Positions 1 to 26,990 of a DNA stretch of 64,000 bases are shown in pieces. The notes below the pieces were generated by a model. The model did not search any database. It had not been told where the DNA came from and saw nothing but the letters and a program-made list of their open reading frames with translations. Source of the stretch: Spirochaetae bacterium HGW-Spirochaetae-1 (lineage in GTDB: Bacteria; Spirochaetota; UBA4802; UBA5550); the NCBI GenBank assembly GCA_002839375.1, contig PGXY01000011.1:62001-126000 (forward strand). Reading direction: 5' to 3'. The translations under genes and the position numbers were made by a program. Positions within the stretch are counted from its first letter, which is position 1; each line of letters begins with the position of its first letter.

Positions 1-1
1 C

Positions 2-4699: not shown

Positions 4700-4709
4700 G
4701 GAGTTTTCT

Positions 4710-10700: not shown

Positions 10701-13700
10701 CGTTTCATGCGCCTTGATTCAATGCCCTTGAATCCCAACGGCAAGGTGGACCGCAAAGCGCTGCCTGAACCTGAAGCCGTTGTATCGGCAGCGCACTACG
10801 TTGCGCCTCGTGATGAGATGGAGCGTGCCCTTGTGCAGCTCTGGCAGGAACTCCTGGGTGTGGAGAAGATTGGTATTCACGATAACTTTTTTGATCTCGG
10901 CGGCCATTCCCTCAAGGTGACGCAGGTTGTCGCGAGAGTTAAAAAAATGTTCGACAGGGACGTGACCATAAGCGGATTTTTTACTGAACCTACCGTGGAG
11001 GGTCTTGCCGCGCTTCTTGGTGGAGCGGCTGAAGAGGGCATCCCTTCCATACTCCCCGTGGCAAAGAGCGATTTCTACGAGCTCTCCCATGCGCAGAAGA
11101 GAATGTGGTTCCTGGACCAGATGATGCCCGGTACCGCTACCTATAATATCCCCATGCTTTTCAACCTGGAAAGTACGATCAACATAGAAAAGCTCCGCGG
11201 TGCACTCCAGGCTGTCGTTGATTCCCAGGAATCACTCAGGACCTGTTTCAGGGATTTTGATGGAAGGCCCGTCCAGGTGATCGCCGATTATTTGAAAGCG
11301 GAAATCACCGTGATTGAAAATACGGACAATGTGATGGAAACGGCATTCCGGGAAATGCTGCGGCCTTTCAACCTGGCCGAAGCACCGCTTTTCCGCGTCA
11401 TGCTGGTAAAGAAAAATGACGGCGCATTCCTCATGGTCATGACCATGCATCATATCATCTCCGACGGCTGGTCCGTGGAACTGCTCATGCGCCAGCTCAT
11501 GGGCGCTTATACGTCACTCGCAGCAGGCTCATCACCGCAAATCCCGGCATTGCCTGTCCAGTACAGGGACTATGCCGCATGGCAGAACACCCTCCTGGAA
11601 ACGGAATTCCTGCGGAAACAGGAAGATTATTGGAAACAGAAACTGGGGGGGACTCTCCCCGTTATTGATCTCCCCTTTGACCGGCCCAGGCCGGCCATGC
11701 AGACACTGAATGGCGCCGCGTACCGGTTCACCATCCCGGTGCAGGCCACTGAGAAGCTGAGAGTCCTGGCCAGGCAAGAGAACATGACCATGTTCATGAT
11801 CATGCTGGCTGTTTTCGATATGCTCATCATGAAGCTCTCGGGACAGGAGGATATCATCGTGGGTACGCCCATCGCGGGGCGCAATAATCCCGATGTGCAG
11901 AATATCATCGGTTTCTTTGTGAATACACTGGCACTGCGCGTGGCCGGAGAGGGAAACCCGTCTTTCACGGCATACCTGGAACGGGTAAAGGAGAGCTGCC
12001 TGGGGGGATACGCGAATCAGGATTATCCCTTTGACCGGCTTATCGATGCTGTAAATCCCGTGCGGGACATCAGCAGAAATCCCATCTTCGACATATTTTT
12101 CGTCTACCACCAGAGCGGTGGTGATATCGGCAAGGCCGCTTCTTCGGGACTCATAAGCTTTGACGGGCTGGTGGAGGGGATTTCAACGTCGAAGTTTGAT
12201 ATCACCCTTAACATCTCCGATCCCGGCGATGAACTGCAGGCCATTTTTGAATACAATACCGATCTTTTTAATCGAGAAACCATGAGCCGCTTTGCCGCTT
12301 ATGTTCTGAATCTCGTTGATGCCGTGACGGCCGATCCCGGACGACCCCTGTCGGAATACAGTGTCATGGGTGCGGACGAACTCCATTCGATCCTGTATGG
12401 TTTCAATGAAACTGCGGCCCCATTTCCTGCCGCGACATGTCCCTATCGGCTTTTTGAGGAGCAGGCGGCGAAAACTCCCGACAGGACGGCAGCGGAGTTC
12501 AACGGCGCATTTCTGACCTACCGGGAATTGAACGAAAAGGCCAACAGGCTTGCACACCGCCTCATGAAGGCAGGAGTTACAGCCGAATCCAAGGTTGGTC
12601 TTCTCGTGGACCGGTCCTTTGATATTCTCATCGGCATCCTCGGCATTCACAAGGCCGGCGGGGGCTATGTTCCCATGGACCCGGACTATCCCCAGTCGCG
12701 TATCGAGTACATGCTGGAGGATTCGCAGAGCCCGGTCCTGGTAACCCAGAGCAGGCATATCCCGCGTCTGAAAAAGAAACCGGAACATATCATAGCCCTT
12801 GACCGCGAAGACATGGGCGGCGAGAACAGTCAAAATCCCGTATCACGGGCCGGTTCGGATAACCTATCCCATCTCATCTACACCTCGGGGTCAACGGGGC
12901 TTCCCAAGGGAGTCATGATCGAGCACCGTAATGTCACGGCCTTCCTTCACTGGTGCCTGCGGGAATTTTCACCGGAGGAATACGCCGAGATGATAGCGGC
13001 CACATCAATGTGTTTCGATCTCTCGGTTTTTGAGTACCTGCTGCCCCTCATTACCGGATCGAAGGTGATCATACTGCGCTCGTCCCTGGAGATGAACGAG
13101 TACCTGGAGAAAAACACGGCAACCATGATAAACACGGTGCCCTCGGCGCTGAAGCATTTCATCAGCGTGAGTTCGAAACGGCACCGGGTCATGGCTATAA
13201 ACCTGGCTGGTGAGCCGCTGAAGCTTGATCTCGTCCAGGCCGCCTATGAACATATTGACGTTGACAAGGTGCGGAATCTTTACGGTCCCACGGAGGATAC
13301 CACCTATTCAACGGGATTCATGGTTCCCCGGAATTATGGCAGGCAGCCTCTTATCGGGCGGCCCATCGACAATACCAGGGCCTATATTCTTGACCGTTAT
13401 ATGAAACCGGTACCGGTGGGAGTCAAGGGCGAGATATACCTCTGCGGTGCAGACCTGGCCCGTGGATACTGGAACGCTCCGGAAAAAACAAAGGAACGCT
13501 TTATTCCGAATCCCATAACGGGCGATGAATACCCCTTTATCTACAAAACGGGAGACCTGGGCAGCTGGCTTTCCGATGGCAACATCGATTTCCACGGCAG
13601 GGTCGACTACCAGGTGAAGATACGGGGCAACCGCATCGAGCTGGGTGAAATAGAGACGCGCCTGTCCGAAGTCGATGAAATCAGCGACATCTGTGTCATC

Positions 13701-16700
13701 GACCGCGACGACCGCGACGGAAACAAATACCTGGTTGCTTACTATGTCGCCGATGAGGACCTGGTCATTGGCAGCCTCCGCGAGTTCCTTAAAAAGACTC
13801 TGCCGGACTACATGATTCCGTCCCGGTTTATCCGGGTGAATACACTTCCCCTGACACCTAACGGTAAAGTTGACCGTAAAGCACTCCCCGATCCCGACGA
13901 ACTCCGCCCTGTACTGCAGTCGGAATACGTGGCACCCCGCAGCGAAACGGAAAAAACACTGGCTGATATCTGGCAGCAGGTGCTGGGAATGGAACAGATC
14001 GGCGTAAAAGATAACTTCTTCGACCTGGGAGGTCATTCCCTGAAGGTTACCGAAGTAGTCGCCCTGGGCAAAAAACGCTTCTCACTCGATCTCGAAGTGC
14101 GAATGCTTTTCGAGGCGCCCACCATCGAGACCATGGCCGAAAGGATTGAGGAACTGCGAAAGGGTGGATCTGGGTATATGCTTATCGGTAAACAGGAAAG
14201 GAAAGAGTTCTATGAGCTCTCCCATGCGCAGATGCGCCTCTGGTTTCTTGACAGGATGAGTCCCGGCGAAGCCACGTATCATATACCCATGGCCATGATT
14301 ATGGAAATGAATCTCGATGTGACCCTGCTGGAGCGGGCCATCCAGATGGTCGTCGACGGGCAGGAATCGCTGCGAACGGGCATCACCTCACGCAACGGCG
14401 AACCCGTTCAGTACATAGTTGACGAGGTGAACGTTTCTCTCGATGTACAGACTATTTCCTCCAAGGATATACTGCAAAGTGTTGTTCTCGAGGTTTCTGC
14501 TCCCTTTGATCTCTCACAGGCACCCCTTTTCCGGGTCAGGCTTTTCAGAATAGAAGATGGAAGATATTTATTCGTCTTCGTCATGCATCATATAATATCT
14601 GACGGCTGGTCCCTGAAGGTTCTGGTCAGGTCCCTTGTGGAAGCCTATGCCGGACTATCGCGTGACGAATCTTTCACCATGCCGGAATCGGCCATACAAT
14701 ACCGTGATTATGCCGTATGGCAGAACGAGCTTATCCGCAGCGGCGGTATGAAAAAACAGGAGGAGTACTGGAAAGCGAAGCTGGGCGGAACACTGCCGGT
14801 GCTGGATCTTCCCTTTGATCGTCCCAGGCCGGCGGTGCAGACGCAAAATGGTGCCGGTTTCAAGTTTACCCTCGATGCTGCTCTCACCGGCCGGATTTAT
14901 GAAAGGGTCCGGGAGAAAAACATCACGCTCTATATGTATCTCCTTGCCGTTTTCAACATGATGCTTTCACGGCTAACGAATCTCGATGATATCATAGTGG
15001 GTTCCCCCATCGCGGGCCGGAACCATCCCGATGTGGAAAATGTGATCGGCTTTTTCGTCAATACCCTGGCATTCAGGACCGACATGGCCGGCAACCCGTC
15101 TTTTGAAACGCTCCTGGGACGCGTTCGGGAAGTCTGCCTCGAGGGATACGCCGGACAGGATTATCCCTTTGACCGGCTTATCGATCTTATTAACCCCGTG
15201 CGCGATACGAGCCGAAGCCCCATCTTCAATGTTTTCTTCGTGCTGCAGAACGAGGCCGATGAACTTTCGGCCGGCGGCATGAAGGGATTTAATTTCGAAG
15301 AGGTGAGCGGAGAGCACCGGACTGCCAAGTTTGATCTCAGCCTCTATGTGTCGGAATTCAGCGACCGGCTCGAGGCCTATTTTGAATACAACACCGATCT
15401 TTTTGATAAAGCCACGGTGGAGCGTTTTGCCGGTTACTTTAATATGCTGCTCAGTGCAGTCACTGCCGATACGACGGTAAAGATCGGCCATTGCCCCATG
15501 CTGGACGATACGGAAAAACAGGCGTTGCTTGCCGATTTCAATGCAACTGACAGGGAATACCGGAAAGATATCCGTACCTACCAGCTTTTCGAGGAGCAGG
15601 CGCAGAAAAATCCCGGGTCCGTGGCCGTGGTGTACGGCGATATGTCCATAACCTACGGCGAACTCAATGTCAGGGCCAATCAGCTGGCACGGAACCTCCG
15701 GGAAAAGGGTGTTCGGGCCGATGACATTGTGGGAATCATGGTGGATCGCTCGATTGAGATGATCATCGGCATACTGGCGATAAACAAGGCCGGCGCGGCC
15801 TATCTACCCCTTGATCCCGTCTATCCCCAGGACCGCATTATCTATATGCTGGAAGATGCCGGGGCACGCATACTCCTTTCCCGGGAAAGCCTGGGAGAAA
15901 AAATACGCGAGATGAATTTCCAGGGAACGGTCATCGATATATTTGATAAAGACCTCTATACGGGCGACGGCTCTGATCTTACCCCGATAAACGGGCCGGA
16001 GAATCTCATCTATGTGATCTACACCTCGGGATCCACGGGGAAACCCAAGGGCGTCATGCTGGAGCATGGGAACGTGGTCAATTTTATCACGGGGATGTGC
16101 GAGGATATCGACTTCTCACCGGCCAAAACCATTGTCTGTCTCACCACCATTTCCTTTGACATATTCGTTCTGGAGACCCATCTGGCCCTGGCACGGGGAA
16201 TGAAGATCGTCATGGCCGGCGAGGTCGAGCAGAATGACCCGGAACACCTGAAGGACCTCATTGTCCGCAATGGTGTGAACATGCTGCAGAGTACGCCATC
16301 GAGGCTTCGCCTGCTCATGGAGAGCGCCGGATTTATAGAGAGCCTCTCCTGTCTGTCGGAGATACTCGTGGGAGGGGAACCCTTTCCGGAAGACCTGCTG
16401 GCCATTCTGCGGAAGTCAATGAAGGGACGTATCATAAACGTCTACGGTCCCACGGAGACCACGGTATGGTCGACACTGAAGGATCTGACCGATGAGGCGC
16501 GGATCACCATTGGAAAACCCATCGCCAATACGCAGATATACATCGTCGACCGCTTTGACAATATCCAGCCCCGCGGCGTCATGGGCGAACTCTGCATAGG
16601 CGGTGACGGCCTGGCCCGCGGCTATCATAACAGGCCCGAGCTGACCGCGGAGAAATTTTGTCCCAACCCCTTTGCCGCCGGCAAGAAAATGTACCGCACC

Positions 16701-18533
16701 GGCGATCTGGCCCTATGGCTTCCCGACGGAAACCTCATCTGCCACGGCCGCGTGGACCATCAGGTCAAGATCCGCGGGAACAGGATCGAGCTGGGTGAAA
16801 TAGAAATCAGGATTCGTAACTTTGAAGCCATTGACGATGTGGCCGTCATCGACCGCGACGACCGGCTGGGAAACAAGTACCTGGCCGCTTATTATGTTTC
16901 ACAAAATGAGATACTTCCTGCCGAGTTCCGTGAATTTCTTAAAAAGGATCTTCCGGCCTATATGATTCCCAGCCGCTTCATGCGCATGGATTCCCTGCCT
17001 CTGACGCCTAACGGCAAGGTGGACCGGAAAGCCCTGCCCGAGCCCGATGATAAAAGGCTCATGGCGGAAAATGAGTATGTGGCGCCTGCAGGAGATGTTG
17101 AAACGGCCCTGTCCCTGGCCTGGGGTGAGGTGCTGGGACTGGAAAGAGTGGGGGCAACGGATAATTTCTTCGACCTGGGAGGGCATTCGCTGCTCATCAT
17201 GAAGGTAATCGCCAGGCTACAGTTCCGATATCCCGTTACGGTCCAGGATTTCTTTGATTACCAGACGGTTCGTCTTCTTGCTGAACGTATCGCCGATAAT
17301 ATGAGCCAGGCCGGTAAGGTGCCGGTCAATGAAACACTGGTAAGCGAGGAAAAGACAGCCGTCAGTGTTGATATTCCCCTGTCAGGAACCGCGGAAAGGC
17401 CGCGCACTGTTTTTCTTACCGGTGTCACGGGATACCTGGGAGCCCACCTTCTCTTTGAACTTCTGAAAGAAAGCGATGCCGTCATATACTGCCTTGTCCG
17501 TGCGAAAAGCAGGGAACAGGCCGAAGAGCGGATACTTGCAACCATGAATTTCTATTTTGAAAATGTGAATATTGATTTTGCCCGTATCCATGCCGTTCCC
17601 GGTGATATTGCCGTTGACGGACTGGCCATCGGGAAGAAAGACATGGCGAAACTCGGGAAAGGCCTTGATGCGGTCATGCACTGCGCCGCCGATGTCAGGC
17701 ACTTTGGTGATTATGCCCAATTCGAGAATATCAATGTCATGGGTACCGGGAGAATGATAGAACTGGCCAGGGCCGTCAACTGCCGCCGGTTCCATCACAT
17801 TTCCACCATGAGTGTTTCCGGCGATCACGTCCCGGGCATGTCTCAGGCCGTTTTCAGAGAAGGGGATTACGACCGGAACCAGCGTTTGGATAATGTGTAC
17901 GCCCGGAGCAAGTTTCATGCCGAGGGACTGGTAAGGGCTGCCATGGATTCCGGCCTCAATGCTACCATCTACCGGGTCGGTATCCTGGTAGGTGAAACGG
18001 GCAGCGGCAGGTTCCAGCGTTCCATCGGTACCAATGCCTTTTACGGTTTTCTCAAAGGGATACTGGACCTGGGTGCAATCCTGGATTTCACGGCGGAAAC
18101 CGTGGAAATGACTCCCGTTGATTCCTGCCGGGAGGCTATTGTGAAGCTTATGACCATGCCGGAAACAGCGGGACAGTGTCTGCATCTGTATAATCCCCGT
18201 TATATAAGCCTTAACCGGATCGGGCAGTATCTTAATTCTTTCGGGTACGATATTACCATGGCCTCACCGGGTGATTTTGCCCGTGTCATCGGCAGGGCCA
18301 ACGAGGAGAACGCCGCATCTCTCGAGGGCATGGTGCCTCATCTTTCCGGCGGTGTCGCAGCGAAAACAAACATACTGTATGATGACAGTATTACCAGCTA
18401 TTTTCTCACGGCAACGGGATTCAGATGGCCGGAGCTGAATGAAGAATTCATCCATGCCATTTTCAGATATGGCGTCACAGCCGAATTTTTCGAACCGCCC
18501 GTTTCCAGAAAAGAATTTGCATACTCGGAATAA
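4710..18533 (+). CDS. Four-module nonribosomal peptide synthetase with terminal thioester reductase domain
   Basis: A 4607-residue multimodular synthetase: C(DCL)-A-PCP, then three C(LCL)-A-PCP modules, then an R domain. The start chosen is the ATG at 4710, preceded by AAGGAG at 4698-4703. A TTG at 4692 in the same frame overlaps the upstream stop region and lacks this spacing. Carrier serines (GGHSL) fall at about residues 1012, 2067, 3110 and 4160. The specificity codes read Gln-like, Asn, Ala and Gly in order. The terminal domain has a Rossmann GVTGYLG near residue 4240, STMS, and YARSK near 4397. This is the Lys2/thioester-reductase type that releases the chain as an aldehyde or alcohol instead of by hydrolysis. 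There is no thioesterase domain and no MbtH-like gene in the window. Start and family are secure; substrates are inferred. Confidence 0.97.
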   Translation: MDYLTKQNIADIYPLSPMQQGMLFHTLYDPEASAYFEQFCCTITGTWNLENFRKAWNHLVDQHDIFRTVFNWKNVAQPLQIVLKKRPVDFFVHDLGAMSEEEQKKRIDEFIIRDRSGSFDLARGSLMRFNVFQLTADRFYFVWSYHHILLDGWCLSLIISDLMAAYMALEKGTALPHFNRPSYKGYIAWLMKQDKKKSTTFWTEYLQGFEAPTVLPWDNRDAGKEFDIREYAFTLPQEMTAELNDFARKNRVTMSTLIQGAWALVLGRYSGSDDVVFGSIVSGRPADLKGAEQMIGLFINALPVRVKLNRSVGDMLAMLQEKTLGIQEFSHSFLPDVKACSRVPRSSNLFDSLFIFENYPLDSFSFVNEDGIGVTDIKAIEMTNFDLTLCVLPGEKLKMTLAYMQGRFLDVTIERLMNHLVTCLRAFLDDASASANDIDILSLEEKRLILNDFNNTSLSYDESKTLVGLFEEQVLLSGLEAAVRFRDQSLTYEELNAHANRLAWMLREQGVVPGTLVGMMFDSPVETVVSIMGILKAGGGYLPIDYEFPESRIQYILGDSAMPVLLTTEKLAGNVKHAVKKICLDLNNDGFLSQPSHDPDRINNAGDTAYAIYTSGSTGNPKGSLIPHRGVVNLVQGLKKEIYSHYEGRLKVAQLASFSFDASVQQIFAVLLQGHTLLPVPAAMKRDLGELIPYIVENKIDIIDGTPSLWGLLIENGLGDREGLNLKHIIVGGEPLPAVLVRRFGESSYGTSVKWTNVYGVTEASVDSTHYTVRAAELQNRSHVPIGTPLANTQIYILDRSRRPVPIGVQGEIYIGGHGLAKGYLNNPGLTEKAFVASPFIPGELLYKSGDLGRWLPEGTVEFIGRMDYQVKIRGFRIELGEIEVALGGHESVNDCVVVDRDDPRGEKFIIAYYASENEIPIAELRSFLGLTLPEYMIPLKFIWMKELPLNTSGKIDRRSLPEPDDLRPEMAVEYVAPRNEMEEKIVELWKQVLGVDRIGVFDNFFELGGHSLRATQVVAAIKKEMNRDVALKAIFENPTIEGLCRVLESRGGEAYEPIDALPVQKYYEMSNSQKRLWFLYKLMPGSSSYNIHGDIMLEGKVDIDAVIGALRIIMERHEILRTVFKEVNDEPRQFISREMQLTVPVEDVSGMKDADNRVAAIIKEEENFVFDLERGPLFRVKIVKQAVEKHMLLLTMHHIISDAWSSGVLMKEAALLYSQITASGSPQLPALRVQYRDFAVWQQRMLDRGMLKKHEEYWKKELSHPLPVLDIPADRSRPPVQTDHGDVCRFSLDADVSELLKKLTGEKGATLYMTILGLFALFLSKLTQHDDIIIGSPISGRNHPDLQDLIGFFVNTIALRLDLAENPSFSDFMNQVKTKSIDAFAHQDYPFDRLIDVVNPARDTSRTPIFNTMFVLQNDADSLRQATMGGITFSDVTGDRGIAKFDLTLFAFEKRDALELAFEYNTDLFDRETVEAYAGYFTNLIKQVCLSPEKNVSAYGLLSDSDRERLFETFNRTEKEYPAERCIQELMGDMIEKYPDRTALVCGGETLTYGEMGSRVNRLAHYLQNRGVGPGVPVGIFMDRSMEMVLGVLAVIQAGGTYIPIESEYPAARISYILNDCGASLILTLTDVMDRLPVFNGEIIVLDKDHGTLDKYPDTKPETTVTGDDLVYVIYTSGSTGEPKGIEIEHRGLVNYITWAADYYGAWDGGSFPLYTSMTFDLTVTSIFVPLTTGHAIHIMPPGLDATSLVRAVITSDTDIAKLTPAHLEIADALTAGDVVKPRRLNRFILGGEALSPRVSRSMLERYPELTIYNEYGPAETVVGCIVHAFKSLEEDCASVPIGTPIANTVIYILDRYMNPVPVGVPGEIYISSPGVARGYHNKDDITAGSFVPNPFRPGNRLYKTGDQARWMRDGIIEYIGRVDHQVKIRGYRIEPGEIATLLSTMQGITECTVIDRRDKTGDLYLAAYYVAGAEIPVQEIKSFLKDRLPEYMVPSRFMRLDSMPLNPNGKVDRKALPEPEAVVSAAHYVAPRDEMERALVQLWQELLGVEKIGIHDNFFDLGGHSLKVTQVVARVKKMFDRDVTISGFFTEPTVEGLAALLGGAAEEGIPSILPVAKSDFYELSHAQKRMWFLDQMMPGTATYNIPMLFNLESTINIEKLRGALQAVVDSQESLRTCFRDFDGRPVQVIADYLKAEITVIENTDNVMETAFREMLRPFNLAEAPLFRVMLVKKNDGAFLMVMTMHHIISDGWSVELLMRQLMGAYTSLAAGSSPQIPALPVQYRDYAAWQNTLLETEFLRKQEDYWKQKLGGTLPVIDLPFDRPRPAMQTLNGAAYRFTIPVQATEKLRVLARQENMTMFMIMLAVFDMLIMKLSGQEDIIVGTPIAGRNNPDVQNIIGFFVNTLALRVAGEGNPSFTAYLERVKESCLGGYANQDYPFDRLIDAVNPVRDISRNPIFDIFFVYHQSGGDIGKAASSGLISFDGLVEGISTSKFDITLNISDPGDELQAIFEYNTDLFNRETMSRFAAYVLNLVDAVTADPGRPLSEYSVMGADELHSILYGFNETAAPFPAATCPYRLFEEQAAKTPDRTAAEFNGAFLTYRELNEKANRLAHRLMKAGVTAESKVGLLVDRSFDILIGILGIHKAGGGYVPMDPDYPQSRIEYMLEDSQSPVLVTQSRHIPRLKKKPEHIIALDREDMGGENSQNPVSRAGSDNLSHLIYTSGSTGLPKGVMIEHRNVTAFLHWCLREFSPEEYAEMIAATSMCFDLSVFEYLLPLITGSKVIILRSSLEMNEYLEKNTATMINTVPSALKHFISVSSKRHRVMAINLAGEPLKLDLVQAAYEHIDVDKVRNLYGPTEDTTYSTGFMVPRNYGRQPLIGRPIDNTRAYILDRYMKPVPVGVKGEIYLCGADLARGYWNAPEKTKERFIPNPITGDEYPFIYKTGDLGSWLSDGNIDFHGRVDYQVKIRGNRIELGEIETRLSEVDEISDICVIDRDDRDGNKYLVAYYVADEDLVIGSLREFLKKTLPDYMIPSRFIRVNTLPLTPNGKVDRKALPDPDELRPVLQSEYVAPRSETEKTLADIWQQVLGMEQIGVKDNFFDLGGHSLKVTEVVALGKKRFSLDLEVRMLFEAPTIETMAERIEELRKGGSGYMLIGKQERKEFYELSHAQMRLWFLDRMSPGEATYHIPMAMIMEMNLDVTLLERAIQMVVDGQESLRTGITSRNGEPVQYIVDEVNVSLDVQTISSKDILQSVVLEVSAPFDLSQAPLFRVRLFRIEDGRYLFVFVMHHIISDGWSLKVLVRSLVEAYAGLSRDESFTMPESAIQYRDYAVWQNELIRSGGMKKQEEYWKAKLGGTLPVLDLPFDRPRPAVQTQNGAGFKFTLDAALTGRIYERVREKNITLYMYLLAVFNMMLSRLTNLDDIIVGSPIAGRNHPDVENVIGFFVNTLAFRTDMAGNPSFETLLGRVREVCLEGYAGQDYPFDRLIDLINPVRDTSRSPIFNVFFVLQNEADELSAGGMKGFNFEEVSGEHRTAKFDLSLYVSEFSDRLEAYFEYNTDLFDKATVERFAGYFNMLLSAVTADTTVKIGHCPMLDDTEKQALLADFNATDREYRKDIRTYQLFEEQAQKNPGSVAVVYGDMSITYGELNVRANQLARNLREKGVRADDIVGIMVDRSIEMIIGILAINKAGAAYLPLDPVYPQDRIIYMLEDAGARILLSRESLGEKIREMNFQGTVIDIFDKDLYTGDGSDLTPINGPENLIYVIYTSGSTGKPKGVMLEHGNVVNFITGMCEDIDFSPAKTIVCLTTISFDIFVLETHLALARGMKIVMAGEVEQNDPEHLKDLIVRNGVNMLQSTPSRLRLLMESAGFIESLSCLSEILVGGEPFPEDLLAILRKSMKGRIINVYGPTETTVWSTLKDLTDEARITIGKPIANTQIYIVDRFDNIQPRGVMGELCIGGDGLARGYHNRPELTAEKFCPNPFAAGKKMYRTGDLALWLPDGNLICHGRVDHQVKIRGNRIELGEIEIRIRNFEAIDDVAVIDRDDRLGNKYLAAYYVSQNEILPAEFREFLKKDLPAYMIPSRFMRMDSLPLTPNGKVDRKALPEPDDKRLMAENEYVAPAGDVETALSLAWGEVLGLERVGATDNFFDLGGHSLLIMKVIARLQFRYPVTVQDFFDYQTVRLLAERIADNMSQAGKVPVNETLVSEEKTAVSVDIPLSGTAERPRTVFLTGVTGYLGAHLLFELLKESDAVIYCLVRAKSREQAEERILATMNFYFENVNIDFARIHAVPGDIAVDGLAIGKKDMAKLGKGLDAVMHCAADVRHFGDYAQFENINVMGTGRMIELARAVNCRRFHHISTMSVSGDHVPGMSQAVFREGDYDRNQRLDNVYARSKFHAEGLVRAAMDSGLNATIYRVGILVGETGSGRFQRSIGTNAFYGFLKGILDLGAILDFTAETVEMTPVDSCREAIVKLMTMPETAGQCLHLYNPRYISLNRIGQYLNSFGYDITMASPGDFARVIGRANEENAASLEGMVPHLSGGVAAKTNILYDDSITSYFLTATGFRWPELNEEFIHAIFRYGVTAEFFEPPVSRKEFAYSE
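4728..7865 (+). other. NRPS module 1 of second synthetase: C(DCL)-A-PCP, predicted Gln
   Basis: The condensation domain opens with IYPLSPMQQGMLFH and has YHHILLDGWC near residue 145, both DCL traits. The adenylation code reads D-A-Q-D-I-G-V-V-D-K, from FDASVQQ, DIIDGTP, HIIVGGEP, TNVYG and TEASVD. It differs only by I for L from the code known for Gln in lichenysin synthetase; Glu codes of this class carry K at the third position. Gln is the best call, Glu the alternative. Confidence 0.75.
7902..11028 (+). other. NRPS module 2: C(LCL)-A-PCP, predicted Asn
   Basis: The code reads D-L-T-K-I-G-E-V-G-K, from FDLTVTS, IAKLTPA, RFILGGEA, YNEYG and AETVVG. This matches the remembered Asn code of tyrocidine-type synthetases; Asp codes have H-I in place of E-V. 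The condensation active-site motif near residue 1198 is HHIISDAWS, with alanine instead of the usual glycine after the aspartate. The catalytic second histidine and the aspartate are intact. Confidence 0.8.
11070..14164 (+). other. NRPS module 3: C(LCL)-A-PCP, predicted Ala
   Basis: The code reads D-L-F-N-N-A-L-T-Y-K, from FDLSVFE, MINTVPS, AINLAGEP, RNLYG and TEDTTY. It matches a code recorded for alanine. The condensation domain carries an intact HHIISDGWS near residue 2247, and the carrier serine is near residue 3110. Confidence 0.75.
14205..17315 (+). other. NRPS module 4: C(LCL)-A-PCP, predicted Gly
   Basis: The code reads D-I-L-Q-L-G-V-V-W-K, from FDIFVLE, MLQSTPS, EILVGGEP, INVYG and TETTVW. 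It differs at two conservative positions from a glycine code (D-I-L-Q-L-G-L-I-W-K). The condensation motif HHIISDGWS is intact near residue 3293. As the last module, this residue becomes the reduced C terminus. Confidence 0.7.
17398..18530 (+). other. Thioester reductase (R) release domain
   Basis: The last 375 residues of the second synthetase are an NAD(P)H-binding extended SDR of the thioester-reductase family. They show VFLTGVTGYLGAHLL for the nucleotide fold, HHISTMSVSG with the catalytic Thr/Ser, and VYARSKFHAEGL with the Tyr-Lys pair. Domains of this family release the thioester-bound peptide by two-electron reduction to an aldehyde, or by four electrons to an alcohol. Which one applies cannot be read from sequence. 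Confidence 0.92.
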
Positions 18534-18548
18534 AACAGGGCGGTGTAT

Positions 18549-19301
18549 ATGACAAAAAGAATCGCGATTATAACAGGCGCCTCTTCCGGGCTGGGAAGGG
18601 AGTTCGCTATACAGCTTTCAGCCGCGTATGAACTTGACGAGATGATACTCCTGGCTCATGAAAAAGAACTCAAGGGCCTGGAGGAAACGGCATCTATGAT
18701 TTCCGTGCCCGCGGTCCTGGTTCCCCTGGACCTGACTGCGTCGGGCAGTATGGACCGGATTCGTGATATGCTGCGTGACCGGGCTCCCCGGATCAGCATC
18801 CTGGTGAATAATGCCGGATTCGCCCATCTGGGCACCTTTACCGAGGCGCCGCTGGACCGGCTTCTAACAATGATAGATTTGAATGTCAAGGCTCTGGTGG
18901 AGCTTACGCATATCTGCATCCCCCTCATGGATGCGGGAAGTTTCATATATCAGGTGGCGTCAATTTCGGCCTTTCTGCCGGGACCGAACCTCGCGGTTTA
19001 TGCCGCGTCTAAATCCTTTGTGCTCAGTTTCGCCCATGCCCTGTACCGTGAACTGGAGGGGAGGGGCATACATGTCATATCAGTGTCGCCCGGCCCCGTG
19101 GCAACCGGTTTCTGGCAGACCGCTTCATCGGGAGCCATGGCTCCTCCGCAGAATGCTTCCCGTCCCGCCGATGTCGTGGCCAGGGCTCTTAAAGACGCCG
19201 GAAAGAAAAGAATAAATTCCACCTATGGCTTTGCGGCGCAGCTCACAATCGCGCTTTCAAGAATTTTGAACAGAAAATTTCATCTGAGGCTGCTGCAATA
19301 G
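18549..19301 (+). CDS. Short-chain dehydrogenase/reductase
   Basis: A 250-residue classical SDR. The cofactor motif GASSGLG lies at residues 10-16, LVNNAG near 85-90, VASIS near 136-140, and the catalytic YAASK at 151-155. The start is the ATG at 18549, placed after an AGGGCGG stretch; a GTG two codons upstream is less well positioned. It follows the synthetase by 15 bases and precedes a type II thioesterase by 22, so it is almost certainly in the NRPS operon. Because the synthetase ends in a reductase domain, the likely role is a redox step on the released aldehyde or on an imine formed from it. A role in building a monomer is the alternative. The substrate is not readable from sequence. Confidence 0.9.
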   Translation: MTKRIAIITGASSGLGREFAIQLSAAYELDEMILLAHEKELKGLEETASMISVPAVLVPLDLTASGSMDRIRDMLRDRAPRISILVNNAGFAHLGTFTEAPLDRLLTMIDLNVKALVELTHICIPLMDAGSFIYQVASISAFLPGPNLAVYAASKSFVLSFAHALYRELEGRGIHVISVSPGPVATGFWQTASSGAMAPPQNASRPADVVARALKDAGKKRINSTYGFAAQLTIALSRILNRKFHLRLLQ

Positions 19302-19323: not shown

Positions 19324-20067
19324 ATGGGAAACCAATGGATAGATTTTACCCGAAGCACCGGTTATTCTGCCACGCTTTTCTGCTTTCCCTATTCCGGGGG
19401 GAGCGCCCAGGTATTCCTGAACCTGCCCAGGTATTTTTCTCCCGCTGTACGCATCATGGCCTTTGAGCCGCCGGGACGGGGGAGGCGTTTTGTCGATACC
19501 CTGGCCGGCTCTCTTGAAGATCTGGTGAATGATGCCTTCCGGGATTTTGACGACCTGTCAGGGGGGAAACCCTTTTATTTCTTCGGCCATTCTCTGGGCG
19601 GACTCACTGCCTTCGTGATGGCAGAGCGGTTGAAGTCCACCAACCTGCCCATGCCGGGCCATCTTTTCGTATCGGGGGTCAGAGCCCCAAACGTGCCCAG
19701 GCGCGAAGGCAATACCCATGATCTGCCCTTTGACGACTTCGTGGAAAAACTGAAGGAAATGGGCGGGACGCCCCAGGAGATCATGGATAACCGGGAAATG
19801 CTGGAGATCATGGTTCCCATCCTGAAAAGCGATTTCCGCTGCTATGAAACCTATCGCCCGGGCGAACCGGAACCGCTGCCCTGTCCCATAAGCGCCCTGG
19901 GAGGCAGCGCCGACCAGTTTGTGCTCCCCGCCGATATTGAACAGTGGTCATTGTACACGGGTTCCCGTTTTTCCAGCAGGATATTTTCGGGAGGTCATTT
20001 CTTCCTGCACACCGACATGAAAAATGTATGCCGTTACATCCAGGAGCGGACCGGCCTGAAGGCATGA
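19324..20067 (+). CDS. Type II thioesterase (NRPS editing)
   Basis: A 247-residue alpha/beta hydrolase of the SrfAD/GrsT family. It shows the N-terminal LFCFPYSGGSA, PPGRG near residues 49-53, the nucleophile elbow GHSLGG with serine 90, and GGHFFLH near the C terminus carrying the catalytic histidine. Type II thioesterases act in trans to clear misprimed acetyl groups or stalled residues from carrier domains. The cytoplasmic protein lies directly behind the synthetase and SDR in the same direction. Its presence does not imply hydrolytic chain release, because the synthetase has its own R domain. Confidence 0.92.
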   Translation: MGNQWIDFTRSTGYSATLFCFPYSGGSAQVFLNLPRYFSPAVRIMAFEPPGRGRRFVDTLAGSLEDLVNDAFRDFDDLSGGKPFYFFGHSLGGLTAFVMAERLKSTNLPMPGHLFVSGVRAPNVPRREGNTHDLPFDDFVEKLKEMGGTPQEIMDNREMLEIMVPILKSDFRCYETYRPGEPEPLPCPISALGGSADQFVLPADIEQWSLYTGSRFSSRIFSGGHFFLHTDMKNVCRYIQERTGLKA

Positions 20068-20111: not shown

Positions 20112-20140
20112 TTGACAAATAACATTAATGATGAGATGTT
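20112..20140 (+). promoter_or_regulatory. Possible sigma-70 promoter for the serine hydrolase gene
   Basis: A perfect TTGACA at 20112-20117 is followed after 17 bases by GATGTT at 20135-20140, which matches the -10 consensus at only three positions. It lies 27 bases upstream of the serine hydrolase ATG. It may give that gene a start separate from the NRPS operon. The -10 is weak. Confidence 0.3.
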
Positions 20141-20166
20141 ATGTTACTGCAAGGGAGGATATTTCC

Positions 20167-21408
20167 ATGAAGAAATCAGCCAGTACTGTTAAGACCAGGA
20201 AGATCGGGAAAATACTGTTACAGGTTTTCGGCCTCATTCTGGCCATATTGATTATTCTGGGTGCAGTTTACCACCGGCAGCTTGTGGCTCTCTACCGCGC
20301 CGTTACCCTCTTCGAACCGGGTCCCATAACGGAGAATTTCCGGAGCATGGGAGATATGTTCGAGTCACGGGTTATTCACCATGGCGATGCGGTTTTCCCA
20401 TTTCGGCACGATATGAAAAAACTGCCCGTGAACTACCGCTTTGAAGGTAAAACTTTAAATATCGAAAAATTTCTTAATCGTACCGACACCACGGGCATTA
20501 TAGTTGTAAAAGACGATATCATTCTTTATGAAAATTATTATCGGGGAAATACCGATACATCACGGGCAATAGCCTGGTCCGTATCGAAGTCCTTCGTTTC
20601 AGCCTTATTTGGAATTGCCATACATGAAGGCTTTATAAAGGATATAATGCAGCCCGTGACGAATTACGTACCATATCTCAAGGGCAGCGGGTACGATGGA
20701 GTTCCTGTAAAACATGTACTGCAGATGTCATCGGGCATCCGCTTCAACGAAGACTATGCCGATTTTAATTCCGATATCAACCGTATGGGCAGGGCCTTCG
20801 CCCTGAATACGTCCATGGATGAATTCGTGTCGTCGTTGAAATCAGAAAGAAAATCGGGAGAATACAACCACTATGTGAGCATGGATACACAGGTGCTGGG
20901 TATGATTTTGCGTGAGACAACGGGTAAAACGCTGTCGCAATATACCGAGGAGAAGCTCTGGAAACCGCTGGGCATGGAATCGGACGCACTCTGGCTCATT
21001 GATGGTAAGGGTATGGAACTGGCTTTTGGCGGCCTTAATGCCGTGCTGAGGGACTACGCACGATTCGGGCGTCTCTATCTGAAACGAGGTAACTGGAATG
21101 GACGGCAGATAGTCCCGGAGGCCTGGGTCAAGGCATCGCTGACGCCCGATGCCCCGCACCTCGTTCCCGGAAAGCGTGATAGTTCAAGCTGGGTCCTGGG
21201 CTACGGCTACCAGTGGTGGATCCCGGAGAATCCCGACAGTGATTTTCTGGCCATCGGCATCTATGGGCAGGCCATCTACATCTATCCGAAATACAATATT
21301 GTTATCGCACGGACCTCGGCATACAGGGACTACAACAAAGACGGCGATGCCATGGAAATAGAATCAATCGAGATGTACCGGGCCATCGCGAAAAGCATGG
21401 GGAAGTAA
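20167..21408 (+). CDS. Membrane-anchored serine hydrolase, beta-lactamase class C/DD-peptidase family
   Basis: A 413-residue protein with an N-terminal hydrophobic segment (about residues 15-35) after a lysine-rich start, followed by a beta-lactamase-fold domain facing the periplasm. The nucleophile motif SVSK is at residues 138-141. A GEYNHYVS stretch near residue 230 probably supplies the tyrosine motif, and QAIYIYPKYNIVI is the C-terminal strand. The overall layout resembles 6-aminohexanoate-dimer hydrolase-like enzymes. The start ATG at 20167 is preceded by AGGGAGG; upstream in-frame ATGs lack this. The gene ends inside the 3' end of the convergent PPTase gene, overlapping it by 45 bases. 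Its position suggests trimming of, or protection from, the NRPS product, but an unrelated cell-wall role is equally possible. Confidence 0.85.
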   Translation: MKKSASTVKTRKIGKILLQVFGLILAILIILGAVYHRQLVALYRAVTLFEPGPITENFRSMGDMFESRVIHHGDAVFPFRHDMKKLPVNYRFEGKTLNIEKFLNRTDTTGIIVVKDDIILYENYYRGNTDTSRAIAWSVSKSFVSALFGIAIHEGFIKDIMQPVTNYVPYLKGSGYDGVPVKHVLQMSSGIRFNEDYADFNSDINRMGRAFALNTSMDEFVSSLKSERKSGEYNHYVSMDTQVLGMILRETTGKTLSQYTEEKLWKPLGMESDALWLIDGKGMELAFGGLNAVLRDYARFGRLYLKRGNWNGRQIVPEAWVKASLTPDAPHLVPGKRDSSSWVLGYGYQWWIPENPDSDFLAIGIYGQAIYIYPKYNIVIARTSAYRDYNKDGDAMEIESIEMYRAIAKSMGK

Positions 21409-22053
21409 TACATGGCTCAACACTACATTGCCTGATAGCCTGCTTTCCGCAGTAAATGTCTGTCCTTTATGAACCCGGGAAGAGATATTTTTCAGTATCG
21501 TCCCGTGAAAAATTCCCGTATCATCGTCGCGGCGAAGCTCGGCATCCTTGAAATCGATATAGGCTCCCACCAGGGGGAAGAAGGCTTTGTATGCCGCTTC
21601 CTTGGCGGAAAAAATCATCCTGAAGCGGAGCTGGCATTCGTCGCGGGAAGCGTGGATCCATTGCAATTCAGAATCGGAGCAGACCAGGTTGAAGACGGGA
21701 AGTTCGACCGGTTCACCCATGTCCTCCACGTCAAGGCCGATGCCTGAGGCCAATATCACCGGGCATACGGCCGATACGGCCACTACCGATGTATGGGAAA
21801 TGGCGCCCACGTATCCTTCGGGCCACAGGGGTTCACCCATGGCCCCCCTGAGGACCGGGGGCGGGTCAGTGCATCCCGCACGCATGAGGGCGTTGCGGCT
21901 TGCAGCCCGTCCCATGATGAATTCACGGCGCCGTTTTTCCCGGGCCTTTTTTCCGAGCGAGCGCAGTTCGTCGGGATGAATGGCGAGGCCGTTAACATCA
22001 TCCATGGTGCTGATTGAAAAACCCACGTATTCGGGAAAGGGTGAAGCTATCAT
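21364..22053 (-). CDS. 4'-phosphopantetheinyl transferase, Sfp/EntD type
   Basis: A 229-residue protein with the family motifs in order: GRAASR (48-53), GEPLWPEGYVGAISHT (73-88), GIGLDVED (104-111, magnesium-binding acidic residues) and FSAKEAAYK (148-156). It transfers the phosphopantetheine arm of CoA onto the carrier serines, turning apo-synthetases into active ones, and acts in the cytoplasm. It lies in the NRPS cluster on the opposite strand, convergent with the serine hydrolase gene and divergent from the first stand-alone acyltransferase. Its length fits the family. The synthetases encode at least six carrier domains that need it. Confidence 0.93.
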   Translation of the reverse strand: MIASPFPEYVGFSISTMDDVNGLAIHPDELRSLGKKAREKRRREFIMGRAASRNALMRAGCTDPPPVLRGAMGEPLWPEGYVGAISHTSVVAVSAVCPVILASGIGLDVEDMGEPVELPVFNLVCSDSELQWIHASRDECQLRFRMIFSAKEAAYKAFFPLVGAYIDFKDAELRRDDDTGIFHGTILKNISSRVHKGQTFTAESRLSGNVVLSHVLLPHAFRDGPVHLD

Positions 22054-22185: not shown

Positions 22186-23547
22186 GTGAATTTCCGAACC
22201 GCGGACAGAATCGGTAGAACAAGGGAGACAATACCCCTTAATCATGTGGATTATCTCTGGCTGGTCCTGGAAGACCTCATGCCCTCCATGGGGCAGCTTA
22301 TCACGCTGAGATTCAAAACCCGGCACGGGGTGGAGGACATGTCATCTGCCTTGCGCCACATGATGCAGATATATCCCCGTCTCAGGCATCTCGTCTGTCC
22401 TGCACGGTGTACATACAGGCTGGAAATTCTTCCCGATACGGAAATAGATGATTATTTTCAGGATATTTTCACGGTGGAAACCGGTATTCCTTATGAATCG
22501 GATTCCTTTATGCATAGACGAAGAAATTTTCTGAACAGGGGTTTTGATCTGGAAAGGGAGCTGCCCCTGCGGGCCGTCTTTTTCCCCGACCATGAAAGTC
22601 CCACGCTTCTCCTGTCCCTGCACCACATTACCTGCGACGGCATGGGGTGGCGCCACCTGGTCGATACTCTCATGGCCTTTCTCAACGGCAAAACCGTGAT
22701 GCCTCTTCCTGTGGAGGATAATAGAATCTATTCATCATTCCTGGAAAAGCCGATCTGCCGGGTTCCCCGTCAACTGTTCCGTTCATGGAAGAATAACCGT
22801 GAAAACGTGTCGCGTAATCGGCAGGGAAAGCCCTTCATTTATCCGCTGAAAAACCGGTGTCCGGTTTTCGGTCCCACTGATATGCATGAACAGGACCTGT
22901 CATTGGGGCTTGATGTATTGAAAGGAGCGTCGAGGAGATATGACTGCACCATTACCGTTCTCCTCATGGCCGCCCTTGCCCTGACCATGGAGGAGCTGGA
23001 TAGCTCCGACCGGGGCGGCGATACCGCCCATATCCATTTTCTTATCGATCTGCGACCCTTTATGAAGCAGCCGGCGCCTGTTTTCGGAAATTATATCATC
23101 TCGGGGCTGGTTCGCGCTCATAACGCTATTTTCTCCGATTATCGGGCTCTGGTGAATACAGTGAAGGAACAACTCCAATATAACCTGGCGCAGGCGGAGA
23201 AGAAAAATATCATCATGCCTATTCTGATAAACGCCCTGATCAAGGTGGCGGGAAGAAGGCTGTCGGTACGCATAGCACACATAATCGAGAAGAAGGGGCT
23301 GCTTTCCTTTTCATATGTTTTTTCCAACATGGGAAACCTGGGAGCTTTGAACAGACATGGGTCCGGGGCAGTGCTTCTGGGCGCTAATGCCACGGTCTCC
23401 CAGCAGGGAATATTTTTTGTCACCAGCTGTATCGGGAACACCATGAACATGGTATTCTCATATCCGGAACGGGAAGTATCAAGAAATGAAATTCAATATC
23501 TTATTAATGTCTTCGAAAAGCATCTTAAAATGATTGTTGGCGGGTAA
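22186..23547 (+). CDS. Stand-alone condensation-type acyltransferase (copy 1)
   Basis: A 453-residue single-domain member of the CoA-dependent acyltransferase/condensation superfamily, as in PapA and wax-ester-synthase-like proteins. It has LNHVDYLWLV near the N terminus and the catalytic HHITCDGMGW at residues 146-155. GTG at 22186 is chosen because GAGGGAG lies five bases upstream; a TTG at 22162 has no such site. There is no adenylation or carrier domain and no membrane segment. It is clearly a paralog of the convergent gene at 23579-24973: both share LNH(V/I)D(Y/F)LWLV, GQLITLRF and YPR(L/M)R at the same places. It may acylate the N terminus or a side chain of the NRPS product, or esterify a lipid. 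The donor and acceptor are unknown. Confidence 0.8.
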   Translation: MNFRTADRIGRTRETIPLNHVDYLWLVLEDLMPSMGQLITLRFKTRHGVEDMSSALRHMMQIYPRLRHLVCPARCTYRLEILPDTEIDDYFQDIFTVETGIPYESDSFMHRRRNFLNRGFDLERELPLRAVFFPDHESPTLLLSLHHITCDGMGWRHLVDTLMAFLNGKTVMPLPVEDNRIYSSFLEKPICRVPRQLFRSWKNNRENVSRNRQGKPFIYPLKNRCPVFGPTDMHEQDLSLGLDVLKGASRRYDCTITVLLMAALALTMEELDSSDRGGDTAHIHFLIDLRPFMKQPAPVFGNYIISGLVRAHNAIFSDYRALVNTVKEQLQYNLAQAEKKNIIMPILINALIKVAGRRLSVRIAHIIEKKGLLSFSYVFSNMGNLGALNRHGSGAVLLGANATVSQQGIFFVTSCIGNTMNMVFSYPEREVSRNEIQYLINVFEKHLKMIVGG

Positions 23548-23578
23548 AACCCGTAGTCTTCGACAGGGCAATGTCCCA

Positions 23579-24973
23579 TTATACTTTAAGCAGGTCGTCC
23601 AGGGCGCCATCGAAGGCGTGGAAAAATTTTTCAATCTCGTCGCGGGTGAAAATATCCACGGGGTAGGAAATGCCCGTATTGATCCGGTCGCCCAGTATGG
23701 AGGAACTTATAAATATCCCATTCTGGGGAACGGTGCCGATCACTTCGCAGATTTGCGCTTTTGCCCCGTGGGAGTTAAGACGGTCGGCATGGCCTATGTT
23801 GGAGAATATATAGGTCAGGGGTACCTTGCCGCTTCTTTTCGCATAACGAGCCGCTTTTGTGTAGTTCTTGAGTCCCATGAATGTAGACAGCTTGTTGAGC
23901 ATCATGGGAAACATGGTCTCTCTTTTTTTAACCTGCCTGAGATTCTCCATGAGTTCGGACCTGACGATCGTTATAAGCCTGTGGGGGTTTTCCGGAGCTT
24001 CACCGGGAATGCGTATCATGCCCAGGAGCAGGTAGTTGCCGAAAACGGGCTTTCCCGTGTGAAAGAGAGGTCTCATGTCAATGATGAAATATATCTGGAT
24101 TACGTTTCCGTCGTGGGAGTGAGCCATTTTCCTGATTGCCATGGAGATGGCGGCGATGCACAGTTCTGTGAAGGCGAAAATACTGCATCCCAGCTCATGC
24201 GATTTGGCGTGGATGGCTGAGAAGGGGTGCGTGATTTCGGCCTGGAAAAGATCGGCATCTCCGAAGGTGTTGAAATCGGTGCACCGAGCGTGAATGATGG
24301 GGATATCATTTCGTCTGATATTCATGTTCCTTTTATATGTCTTGAAAGAGACAAGGAGCCTCGCAGGCATGTCGTACCAGGGTTTCAGCAGCGCCGAGGG
24401 AATGAGGCTGGGATTGTCCGCGGGGATGGGCTTTACCGGGGCGCCGTTCAGGAAAGACATGAATGTGTTGAGCATGTGCAGCCATCCCCTGGCATCGGTA
24501 AGGACATGATGGATTGAAAGGAACAATACCGGCGTATCACCGTCGGGAAGGTAGTGAATTTTAAAGGCCAACCCGTGTTCCAGGTCAAAGGGTTCGTTGA
24601 ACAGCATTTTTCGGTACTCGAAATAACCACGGCCATTATAGACCATATCGTGCTTCACGATAAATGACTCATCGAAGAGTTTCTCCAGAATGGGATCGTT
24701 ATCGGCCGGAACTTTCAGACGGAGTCTCATGATTTTATTTTCAAGCACCGAACGCATGCGGGGATATGCCGAGAGAAGGGACCGAACCGCCCTTTTTATT
24801 TCCTCGGGAGCATGCTTCGTGGTGAAGCGCAGCGTGATAAGCTGGCCGAATGAGGGGAACAGGCGGCTCATGACCAGCCATAAAAAATCGATGTGGTTGA
24901 GTTTGATGTACTGTGACCGGGTAGACATATTATACATTCCCGAGGCTTTTTTCTGTTTTATGCGACTGTTCAT
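23579..24973 (-). CDS. Stand-alone condensation-type acyltransferase (copy 2, variant active site)
   Basis: A 464-residue paralog of the convergent gene, with an end-to-end gap of 31 bases. The superfamily motif is HHVLTDARGW at residues 155-164. Both histidines and the aspartate are kept, but alanine replaces the usual glycine after the aspartate. The ATG at 24973 overlaps the TGA of the upstream acetyl-CoA transferase gene as ATGA, which indicates translational coupling. Alternative starts at two downstream ATGs (about 15 residues in) cannot be excluded, since no strong ribosome site is visible. The coupling suggests that this acyltransferase works on a CoA thioester handled by its neighbour, but the substrate is not readable. 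Confidence 0.8.
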   Translation of the reverse strand: MNSRIKQKKASGMYNMSTRSQYIKLNHIDFLWLVMSRLFPSFGQLITLRFTTKHAPEEIKRAVRSLLSAYPRMRSVLENKIMRLRLKVPADNDPILEKLFDESFIVKHDMVYNGRGYFEYRKMLFNEPFDLEHGLAFKIHYLPDGDTPVLFLSIHHVLTDARGWLHMLNTFMSFLNGAPVKPIPADNPSLIPSALLKPWYDMPARLLVSFKTYKRNMNIRRNDIPIIHARCTDFNTFGDADLFQAEITHPFSAIHAKSHELGCSIFAFTELCIAAISMAIRKMAHSHDGNVIQIYFIIDMRPLFHTGKPVFGNYLLLGMIRIPGEAPENPHRLITIVRSELMENLRQVKKRETMFPMMLNKLSTFMGLKNYTKAARYAKRSGKVPLTYIFSNIGHADRLNSHGAKAQICEVIGTVPQNGIFISSSILGDRINTGISYPVDIFTRDEIEKFFHAFDGALDDLLKV

Positions 24974-26871
24974 TGTTCGGTATCCATCTCAAAGGTTATG
25001 ACGCGCGTGTCCGAGCTGCTCTGGAGATGAGCCGCTTCCTTCTGGATAACCCGGATCATCGCCATGTTGTCCTCCCAGACATAGGCTGATAGTTTTTTGA
25101 AGCCCATATTGCCGGCTATTTCCGTCATGTACTTCAGGAGATAAGTTCCTATTCCCTTGTTCTGCCACCGGGGGTCTACCATGGCCGCAAATTCAGCCGT
25201 GTCCTTTTTGTCGTCGCCGTTTTCCCGGGCGATGTGGGCCACGGCAAGAACGTTGTCCTTGTTCCTGTTTAGCTCAGTCACGACAAGGGCCATGCTGTTT
25301 ATGTAATCGGCGTTCACCAGGGGCTGAGCCTGCTGGTGGTGCAGCACTGTGACGTTTCGCAGGAACCTGAAAAATTTATCATTCTGCGGCATAGTATAGA
25401 AGAGATCCTGGATGGCGCGTTCATCGGTGATCTTGACGGGCCTGATGATAAACTTGTTCTCCCGTATGGTTTTTTTCATCTCATATTTAAAGGGATAAAT
25501 GGCACTTTCAGCGGGAAGAACCTGGTCCTGGTATACGAAATTGAGGCGTTTGGCCTCTTCAAGGAGCCACTGACGGAAGCCGGGGTGGGCGATGCTTATA
25601 AGAGCCAGGGCCCGGTCCCGGATGGATTTGCCGTAGAGGTTGACGCAGCCATATTCGGTGACGATCCAGTTGGTGTCCGTCTGGGTGGTAATGATACCGC
25701 TGCGGCTGTAGGTGAATTCAGGCACGATGCGCGATTGGCTCCCGTCGCGCGTAGTGGAGCGCAGAGCGATGATACCCTTGCCGCCCGGTGAGAGCATGGC
25801 TGTCCGGTTGAAATCGGCGTGGGAGAGAACGCCGAAGAAGTCAATCTGGTCCTTCATGCCCACACAGGTCTGGCCGGTCAGGTCCACTTCCACGGCACCG
25901 TTGATGGCCACCATGTTGCCGTGGCTTCCAATGACCTGTGGATTGCTCACGTATTCCGGTTTACGCATTTCGATGCCGGGATTGTCGTTAAGGTAGTCAA
26001 AGAGGCGACGGGTGCCCAGACACAGGCTGGCAGTGGTTTTTCCCGTGTCGATATCCTTATTCATGTTTGTGACCGTTCCCGATTCCATGAGGTCGCAGAT
26101 TGTGTCAGTTATAATTTCGGAATGGATTCCCAGGTCTTTTTTTCCCACCAGGGAAAGCAGGGCGGCTTCTGGTATGCGGCCGAAGCCGAACTGGATGGTG
26201 GAGCCGTCGTCGATGAGAGAGGCGATATTTTCTCCCACCTCGAGCGTTTCAATATCGAGCTTTTCCATGGGGTACTCAATGAGAGGGGCGTCATGCTCGA
26301 TAAGGTGATCCACCATGCTCATGTGGATGAACCCATCGCCGAAGGTCCGTGGGATGTTCCTGTTTACCTGGGCAATGACAACGCTGGCCTTTTCAATGAT
26401 TGTCCTGGTAATGTCAACGGTGACTCCCAGACTCATGAATCCCCGGGAGTCGGGAATGCCAAGCTGGATCAGTGCCACGTCAACGGGTATGTATTCCTCA
26501 AGGATGAGGCGGGAAAGCCCGAAGGTTGAAACTGGCATATGGTCTGCATTACCCTGGTCAAAGGCGCTGCGCAGGCTGGGCGAAATGAAAAATGATTTTA
26601 TCCGGAACCTCGAACCGAATTTCCCGCCGAAATCGCTGTAACCGCTCAGAGGTATGGTGGTAAAAATTTCCACATCACTGAGCCCCCTGTTGTTTATGAT
26701 GAGAGTTTCCACAAGGAACCGGGGCTCGCTGCAGCCCGTTTCTATATACACCTTGTTGCCCGGCTGAACGAGATTTATGAGCTGTTCGGGCTGCCGCAGT
26801 TTTTCTTTGTATTCATTCTGCCACATATTAGTATTCCATGGCCCATCGGGCCCTGAGACGGTTTGATTCAT
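24970..26871 (-). CDS. Acetyl-CoA hydrolase/transferase fused to a GNAT acetyltransferase
   Basis: A 633-residue two-domain protein. The first 450 or so residues are an acetyl-CoA hydrolase/4-hydroxybutyrate CoA-transferase-type domain, with FGFGRIPEAAL and AINGAVEVDLTGQ, whose glutamate is the CoA-accepting residue in the family. The last 160 residues are a GNAT domain with QNKGIGTYLLKYM as the acetyl-CoA loop. Members move CoA between short acyl groups, typically acetate and butyrate-like acids; the GNAT may acetylate a protein or small molecule. The ATG at 26871 is chosen over an in-frame TTG at 26910. It is translationally coupled to the downstream acyltransferase. Domain calls are firm; the acyl substrate is unknown. 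Confidence 0.88.
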   Translation of the reverse strand: MNQTVSGPDGPWNTNMWQNEYKEKLRQPEQLINLVQPGNKVYIETGCSEPRFLVETLIINNRGLSDVEIFTTIPLSGYSDFGGKFGSRFRIKSFFISPSLRSAFDQGNADHMPVSTFGLSRLILEEYIPVDVALIQLGIPDSRGFMSLGVTVDITRTIIEKASVVIAQVNRNIPRTFGDGFIHMSMVDHLIEHDAPLIEYPMEKLDIETLEVGENIASLIDDGSTIQFGFGRIPEAALLSLVGKKDLGIHSEIITDTICDLMESGTVTNMNKDIDTGKTTASLCLGTRRLFDYLNDNPGIEMRKPEYVSNPQVIGSHGNMVAINGAVEVDLTGQTCVGMKDQIDFFGVLSHADFNRTAMLSPGGKGIIALRSTTRDGSQSRIVPEFTYSRSGIITTQTDTNWIVTEYGCVNLYGKSIRDRALALISIAHPGFRQWLLEEAKRLNFVYQDQVLPAESAIYPFKYEMKKTIRENKFIIRPVKITDERAIQDLFYTMPQNDKFFRFLRNVTVLHHQQAQPLVNADYINSMALVVTELNRNKDNVLAVAHIARENGDDKKDTAEFAAMVDPRWQNKGIGTYLLKYMTEIAGNMGFKKLSAYVWEDNMAMIRVIQKEAAHLQSSSDTRVITFEMDTEQ

Positions 26872-26990
26872 AATAGTTCCATTCTCAAATACAGGTTGCC
26901 GTATATGCAAGGGTTGTTAAGATTACTGTAATGCCCGGGCATTAAAAAAAGCAACAAAAAAAGTATGACTGGACGGTTAAAATGAAAAAT

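Follow-up and report, generated by a model that had tools for sequence, protein, structure and literature searches.

A and B, two neighbouring genes that face each other, encode paralogous stand-alone proteins of the condensation superfamily, members of a rare family that accompanies one type of reductase-terminated NRPS in a few distant bacteria. As judged from sequence, they would be soluble O-acyltransferases of a distinct condensation/WS-DGAT/PapA branch that modify what the neighbouring FAAL-NRPS-reductase line makes, a reading that we favour, if not strongly. The 64,000-nucleotide stretch of DNA that was analysed, referred to here as the window, is C11:62001-126000 of the host genome (G000); its relevant features are collected in Table 1.

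Table 1. Genes and motifs of the A/B region, in window coordinates.
Feature	Position	Strand	Remarks
NRPS N1, C-terminal part	1..4699	+	whole gene C11:57997-66699, 2900 aa: FAAL-FAAL-T-C-A-T-E
NRPS N2	4692..18533	+	4613 aa; four C-A-T modules followed by a reductase domain (NAD_binding_4); codes Gln, Asn, Ala-like, Gly-like
SDR oxidoreductase	18543..19301	+	conserved after NRPS in G028, G393, G723 (49-51% identity)
Type II thioesterase	19324..20067	+	conserved in G028, G393, G723 (45-47% identity)
Beta-lactamase/esterase-family serine hydrolase (PF00144)	20128..21408	+	
4'-phosphopantetheinyl transferase (PPTase)	21364..22053	-	48% identity to G393 PPTase
Protein A, stand-alone condensation-superfamily acyltransferase	22186..23547	+	453 aa, GTG start; full-length homologues elsewhere; PF00668 E 1.1e-9
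A active-site motif HHITCDG, residues 146-152	22621..22641	+	sequence
Protein B, paralogue of A	23579..24973	-	464 aa; 32% identity to A; PF00668 E 8e-6, under cut-off
B active-site motif HHVLTDA, residues 155-161	24491..24511	-	sequence; catalytic His and Asp retained, G to A
CoA-transferase/acetyl-CoA hydrolase fused to GNAT	24970..26910	-	TGA overlaps ATG of B (ATGA); pathway membership uncertain

The gene pair

The first-pass annotation had described a convergent pair of paralogues with no other domains next to an R-domain NRPS, and on all of these points it is borne out. Both open reading frames are where it placed them, with 31 bp separating the two stops, and the proteins align over 439 residues (32% identity, 54% positives, 273 bits), with an E value of 3e-91 that puts their paralogy beyond chance. 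The sole Pfam domain of each is a weak match to PF00668 in the N-terminal half, which in A scores 38 bits, above the cut-off, over model positions 31-181 of 456, and in B scores 25.2 bits against a cut-off of 30.6; an NCBIfam search with A and B gave no meaningful assignment. The NAD_binding_4-terminated NRPS (N2) ends 3.6 kb upstream of A, the genes for the SDR, thioesterase, beta-lactamase-like protein and PPTase lying between. The motifs that had been quoted, HHITCDG for A and HHVLTDA for B, are also correctly read. GAGGGAG immediately precedes the GTG start of A on its 5' side; the gap between A and B was searched for a terminator, and none was found, nor did a search turn up repeats pointing to mobility. 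A simple hydropathy scan gives no transmembrane window in A and one in B, and the proteins probably have few or no transmembrane segments, in keeping with soluble enzymes. The ATGA overlap with the CoA-transferase/GNAT gene suggests that this gene and B are translationally coupled, which would be compatible with a CoA donor.

The eight complete members of the family can be aligned from end to end, and all of them retain the second His and the Asp of HHxxxDG (His147 and Asp151 in A). (In C domains the second His is usually assigned a catalytic role, the exact function of which is debated.) The remainder of the motif is less constant: two copies have R or N in place of the first His, and Ala replaces the Gly in B and in one of the G723 copies (RHVTGDA). 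These last two substitutions are what might be cited for B, and perhaps other copies, being catalytically dead and acting on A as a partner protein or regulatory subunit. We regard that as very improbable, every copy retaining the second His and the Asp, and enzymes of the C superfamily with altered motifs being capable of activity, as is the case for HQxxxDM in streptothricin ORF18 (PMC11546977). For the same reasons the G-to-A change in B is no evidence of a different reaction. The proposal that divergence of the active sites signals two different acyl transfers is not supported: neither protein has lost the second His or the Asp, and the G-to-A change recurs in a deltaproteobacterial copy.

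Distribution and association with the NRPS

The genomes searched number 788 and come from two phyla, 393 from that of the host and 395 from that of the deltaproteobacterial genomes referred to below (the phyla differ, since the genomes listed for the two samples do not overlap). Five of the 788 carry the A/B family: the host, with two copies, the deltaproteobacterial genomes G393, with two in tandem, and G723, with three in tandem, a further member of their phylum, G423, with one, and G028 with a decayed remnant. The convergent layout is particular to the host. A first scan of public genomes with two peptide patterns drawn from the A/B alignment found nothing, the patterns being too strict, as the relatives found by the later HMM search make clear; A is absent from 97 relatives of the host, and a plasmid search with A gave no match. 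With a two-sequence HMM, the 393 genomes of the host's phylum yielded, apart from the host itself, the G028 remnant alone (same order, another family). The 395 of the other phylum yielded two carriers, G723 and G423, beyond G393. A class-level search with a better profile revealed no further carriers of the family. The remnant, of ~0.85 kb (L020:8208-9061, on G028:C63), is marked by stops and frame changes and lacks the HHxxxDG region; it sits between a C-terminal NRPS reductase and an SDR plus thioesterase that are 45-49% identical to those of the window.

The NRPS type was defined by matches to the reductase domain of the window (>380 bits, at least 44% identity) in the same two samples. Strong matches occur in four of the 788 genomes, G000, G028, G393 and G723, the next best match scoring 236 bits at 36% identity. 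All four of these genomes carry the A/B family, so that the pairing with this NRPS, the conservation of which the first-pass annotation had left to be checked, does recur; conversely, four of the five family carriers have the NRPS, and the three NRPS genomes with intact family genes have two or three copies each. The corresponding hypergeometric value, 3e-10, is naive in ignoring shared ancestry and joint transfer, and we prefer the counts to it. Four genomes underlie the co-occurrence, a pattern that would also arise if the genes had been transferred jointly by horizontal transfer. That a rare family recurs with this NRPS in a handful of distant bacteria suggests a pathway, so far undescribed, to an acylated lipopeptide. 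A separate scan with the reductase domain found one close record (L048, Deltaproteobacteria bacterium isolate AUK176, which is part of G393), in which the NRPS-reductase is followed by SDR, thioesterase, PPTase and serine hydrolase genes, the last looking, as read from its sequence, like the serine hydrolase of the window.

G393 is a fragmented MAG in which the two tandem members lie on a contig other than that of the NRPS; G723 likewise has its acyltransferases and its NRPS on different contigs. In both genomes the copies adjoin genes for UDP-galactopyranose mutase (glf), a family 1-type glycosyltransferase, a WS/DGAT-like acyltransferase, PGA_cap and MFS proteins, and these neighbourhood genes are 45-77% identical between the two. 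(In G393, a 266-aa protein with a weak match to the 2-oxoacid dehydrogenase acyltransferase E2 catalytic domain, L134:9420-10220, also adjoins the acyltransferase pair.) G423 has no condensation domain and no NRPS in its genome; its single family member is accompanied by a glycosyltransferase-like gene and two WS/DGAT-like enzymes. The acceptor therefore need not be a carrier-bound peptide, nor is the NRPS product an obligatory one, and G423 suggests what is the strongest rival to our reading: that A/B acylate a glycolipid made independently of the NRPS, the latter being merely a frequent neighbour in a cell-envelope lipid island. The glf-glycosyltransferase-PGA_cap-MFS operon, which in G723 is not adjacent to the NRPS, fits such an arrangement. 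We nonetheless consider it somewhat unlikely, in view of the presence of the family in each of the four NRPS genomes and its near-absence from the others, and of the location of its genes within the NRPS cluster in G000 and G028.

Placement among known acyltransferases

In a phylogenetic tree the A/B family is a single clade with 100/100 support, distinct from the NRPS domains included (11 C, 2 E) and from a WS/DGAT-like set, with weak support for the deeper order. The tree rejects an origin of the two proteins in C or E domains of the same cluster. Copies from the deltaproteobacterial phylum form a clade that excludes A and B; duplication thus seems to have taken place independently in each lineage, although A is a long branch. 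Three other stand-alone condensation-like proteins considered as relatives, at C11:221909 (L014) and in G021 and G030, fall outside the family. The assignment to stand-alone condensation-type acyltransferases made at the outset is upheld as to superfamily, and the family is tied to this NRPS type. Of the three families named there for comparison, the condensation family gave the weak PF00668 match, whereas no match to PapA_C or to PF03007 was found.

The likeness to NRPS C domains consists of the motif (exact HHxxxDG in A, HHxxxDA in B) and of similarity in the N-terminal half; six of seven family members match PF00668, with E values up to 0.01. In contrast to C domains, A and B lack a full-length PF00668 match (about one-third of the Pfam model is covered), have no attached carrier or adenylation domains, and stand as a separate clade. 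The fold superfamily, HHxxxDG and the stand-alone form are held in common with WS/DGAT enzymes, and in hhalign comparisons the family aligns with the WS/DGAT-like set at 98.6% over 390 columns and with NRPS C domains at 96.8% over 366 columns. The WS/DGAT catalytic domain itself, PF03007, has no match in the family, and WS_DGAT_C (PF06974) matches one member of seven, weakly (0.0017). Neither PapA_C (PF16911) nor an NCBIfam PapA model finds a match among the members, and PapA5 reaches an E value of 0.61 at best in a profile search.

Stand-alone C domains exist, VibH being one, and A and B might be such trans-acting condensation enzymes, forming an amide or ester on a carrier-bound intermediate. 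The weak PF00668 match and the HHxxxDG motif are what one would expect of them, and a free-standing C domain, OaaC, is able to use acyl-ACP (PMC13142362). The NRPS modules, however, have C domains of their own, the clade is separate from C domains and aligns better with WS/DGAT-like enzymes, and one of its members belongs to the NRPS-free G423, all of which makes a condensation role quite unlikely.

PapA, WS/DGAT and C-domain signatures each failing at least one comparison, the glycopeptidolipid locus is the nearest working analogy, as distinct from a class to which A and B belong. In the mycobacterial locus, NRPSs (Mps1/Mps2) produce a tripeptide-amino alcohol whose N-acylation is proposed to be the work of PapA3, and the sugars become acetylated (PMC3537567). 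The likeness lies in a stand-alone condensation-superfamily acyltransferase beside an NRPS whose N-acylated peptide has an amino alcohol at its end (PMC3537567), and in the FAAL, glycosyltransferase and lipid context of related genomes. The host line has a FAAL-FAAL-T start and a terminal reductase domain, which may yield a product of this kind; the host differs in its peptide codes and its phylum, and in having seven acyltransferases that belong to two families. A search of the clusters examined with an MbtH-like sequence pattern gave no hit. No paper turned up by a literature search was recognised as describing this locus.

The assembly line and a proposed function

The A domains of N1 and N2, with codes extracted by motif anchoring, read DAMFLGVTFK, DAQDIGVVDK, DLTKIGEVGK, DLFNNALTYK and DILQLGVVWK, which, by comparison with codes in the literature, we take to be aliphatic, Gln, Asn, Ala-like and Gly-like, in that order. 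A fatty acid loaded by FAAL would be condensed with these approximately five residues, and the terminal reductase domain, perhaps with the SDR, would release an aldehyde or alcohol. (N1 opens with two consecutive FAAL-like regions before its first carrier domain, from C11:57997, or L013:15997, onward; the first NRPS proteins of G393 and G723 open similarly.) No Ser/Thr code is found among these A domains; the predicted product has no side-chain hydroxyl, and O-acylation therefore needs the terminal alcohol, a fatty-acid hydroxyl or a sugar. Glycosyltransferases adjoin the homologues in G393 and G723, and G423 has its glycosyltransferase-like gene. Among the ORFs scanned in the host cluster there is none, the nearest one found being ~140 kb away on the same contig.

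A and B have company on the other side of the NRPS. Directly upstream of N1 and outside the window, five tandem WS/DGAT-like acyltransferases of ~400 aa are encoded on the minus strand (C11:51040-57333, or L013:9040-15333). In an all-against-all comparison they are 41-52% identical to one another and 37-43% identical to the two G423 enzymes, and their closest solved relative is the diacylglycerol O-acyltransferase 6chj (E 4e-6). Together with A and B, this makes seven stand-alone acyltransferases flanking one FAAL-NRPS-reductase line. We read A and B as O-acyltransferases by analogy with mycobacterial PapA and glycopeptidolipid loci. All seven enzymes may use acyl-CoA or acyl-carrier species as donors and acylate hydroxyls on the lipopeptidyl alcohol or on a sugar attached to it, and the second His of HHxxxD would activate the acceptor hydroxyl; enzymatic activity, donor, acceptor and order of steps are here what we infer from the paralogy, superfamily, motif conservation, NRPS architecture and co-occurrence observed.

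Glycopeptidolipid-type envelope lipids are best known from mycobacteria. A broader proposition, which we put forward tentatively and as possible rather than probable, is that Gram-negative-type bacteria from two phyla or more make a class of polyacylated lipopeptidyl-alcohol (glyco)lipids that has not been described before and that parallels the glycopeptidolipids. Their synthesis would pair a reductase-terminated FAAL-NRPS with dedicated stand-alone acyltransferases of two families (the seven copies here), each with its own hydroxyl. If true, this would mean that envelope lipids of the glycopeptidolipid type also occur in unrelated diderm bacteria, and it would provide a testable set of acyltransferases, the number of enzymes being matchable to the acyl groups on one product. 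The A/B family marks such loci, being present, in the sample searched, in every genome with this NRPS type.

Other genes of the window and contig

Beyond B, the genes of the window that were examined resemble ordinary cell functions. Between 30096 and 35040, on the minus strand, a LolA-like lipoprotein-sorting protein, an 835-aa protein and a DUF1302 protein are encoded in a row; the 835-aa protein starts with a lipoprotein-like signal and has no Pfam match. Elsewhere on the contig (L014:3988-8874, which is C11:219987-224873) lies a second group, in which neighbouring ORFs of 453 and 448 aa resemble stand-alone acyltransferases and are accompanied by a methyltransferase-like ORF and an EryCIII-like glycosyltransferase; near this group, at 9262-11197, ORFs resembling beta-ketoacyl synthase III were read by eye.
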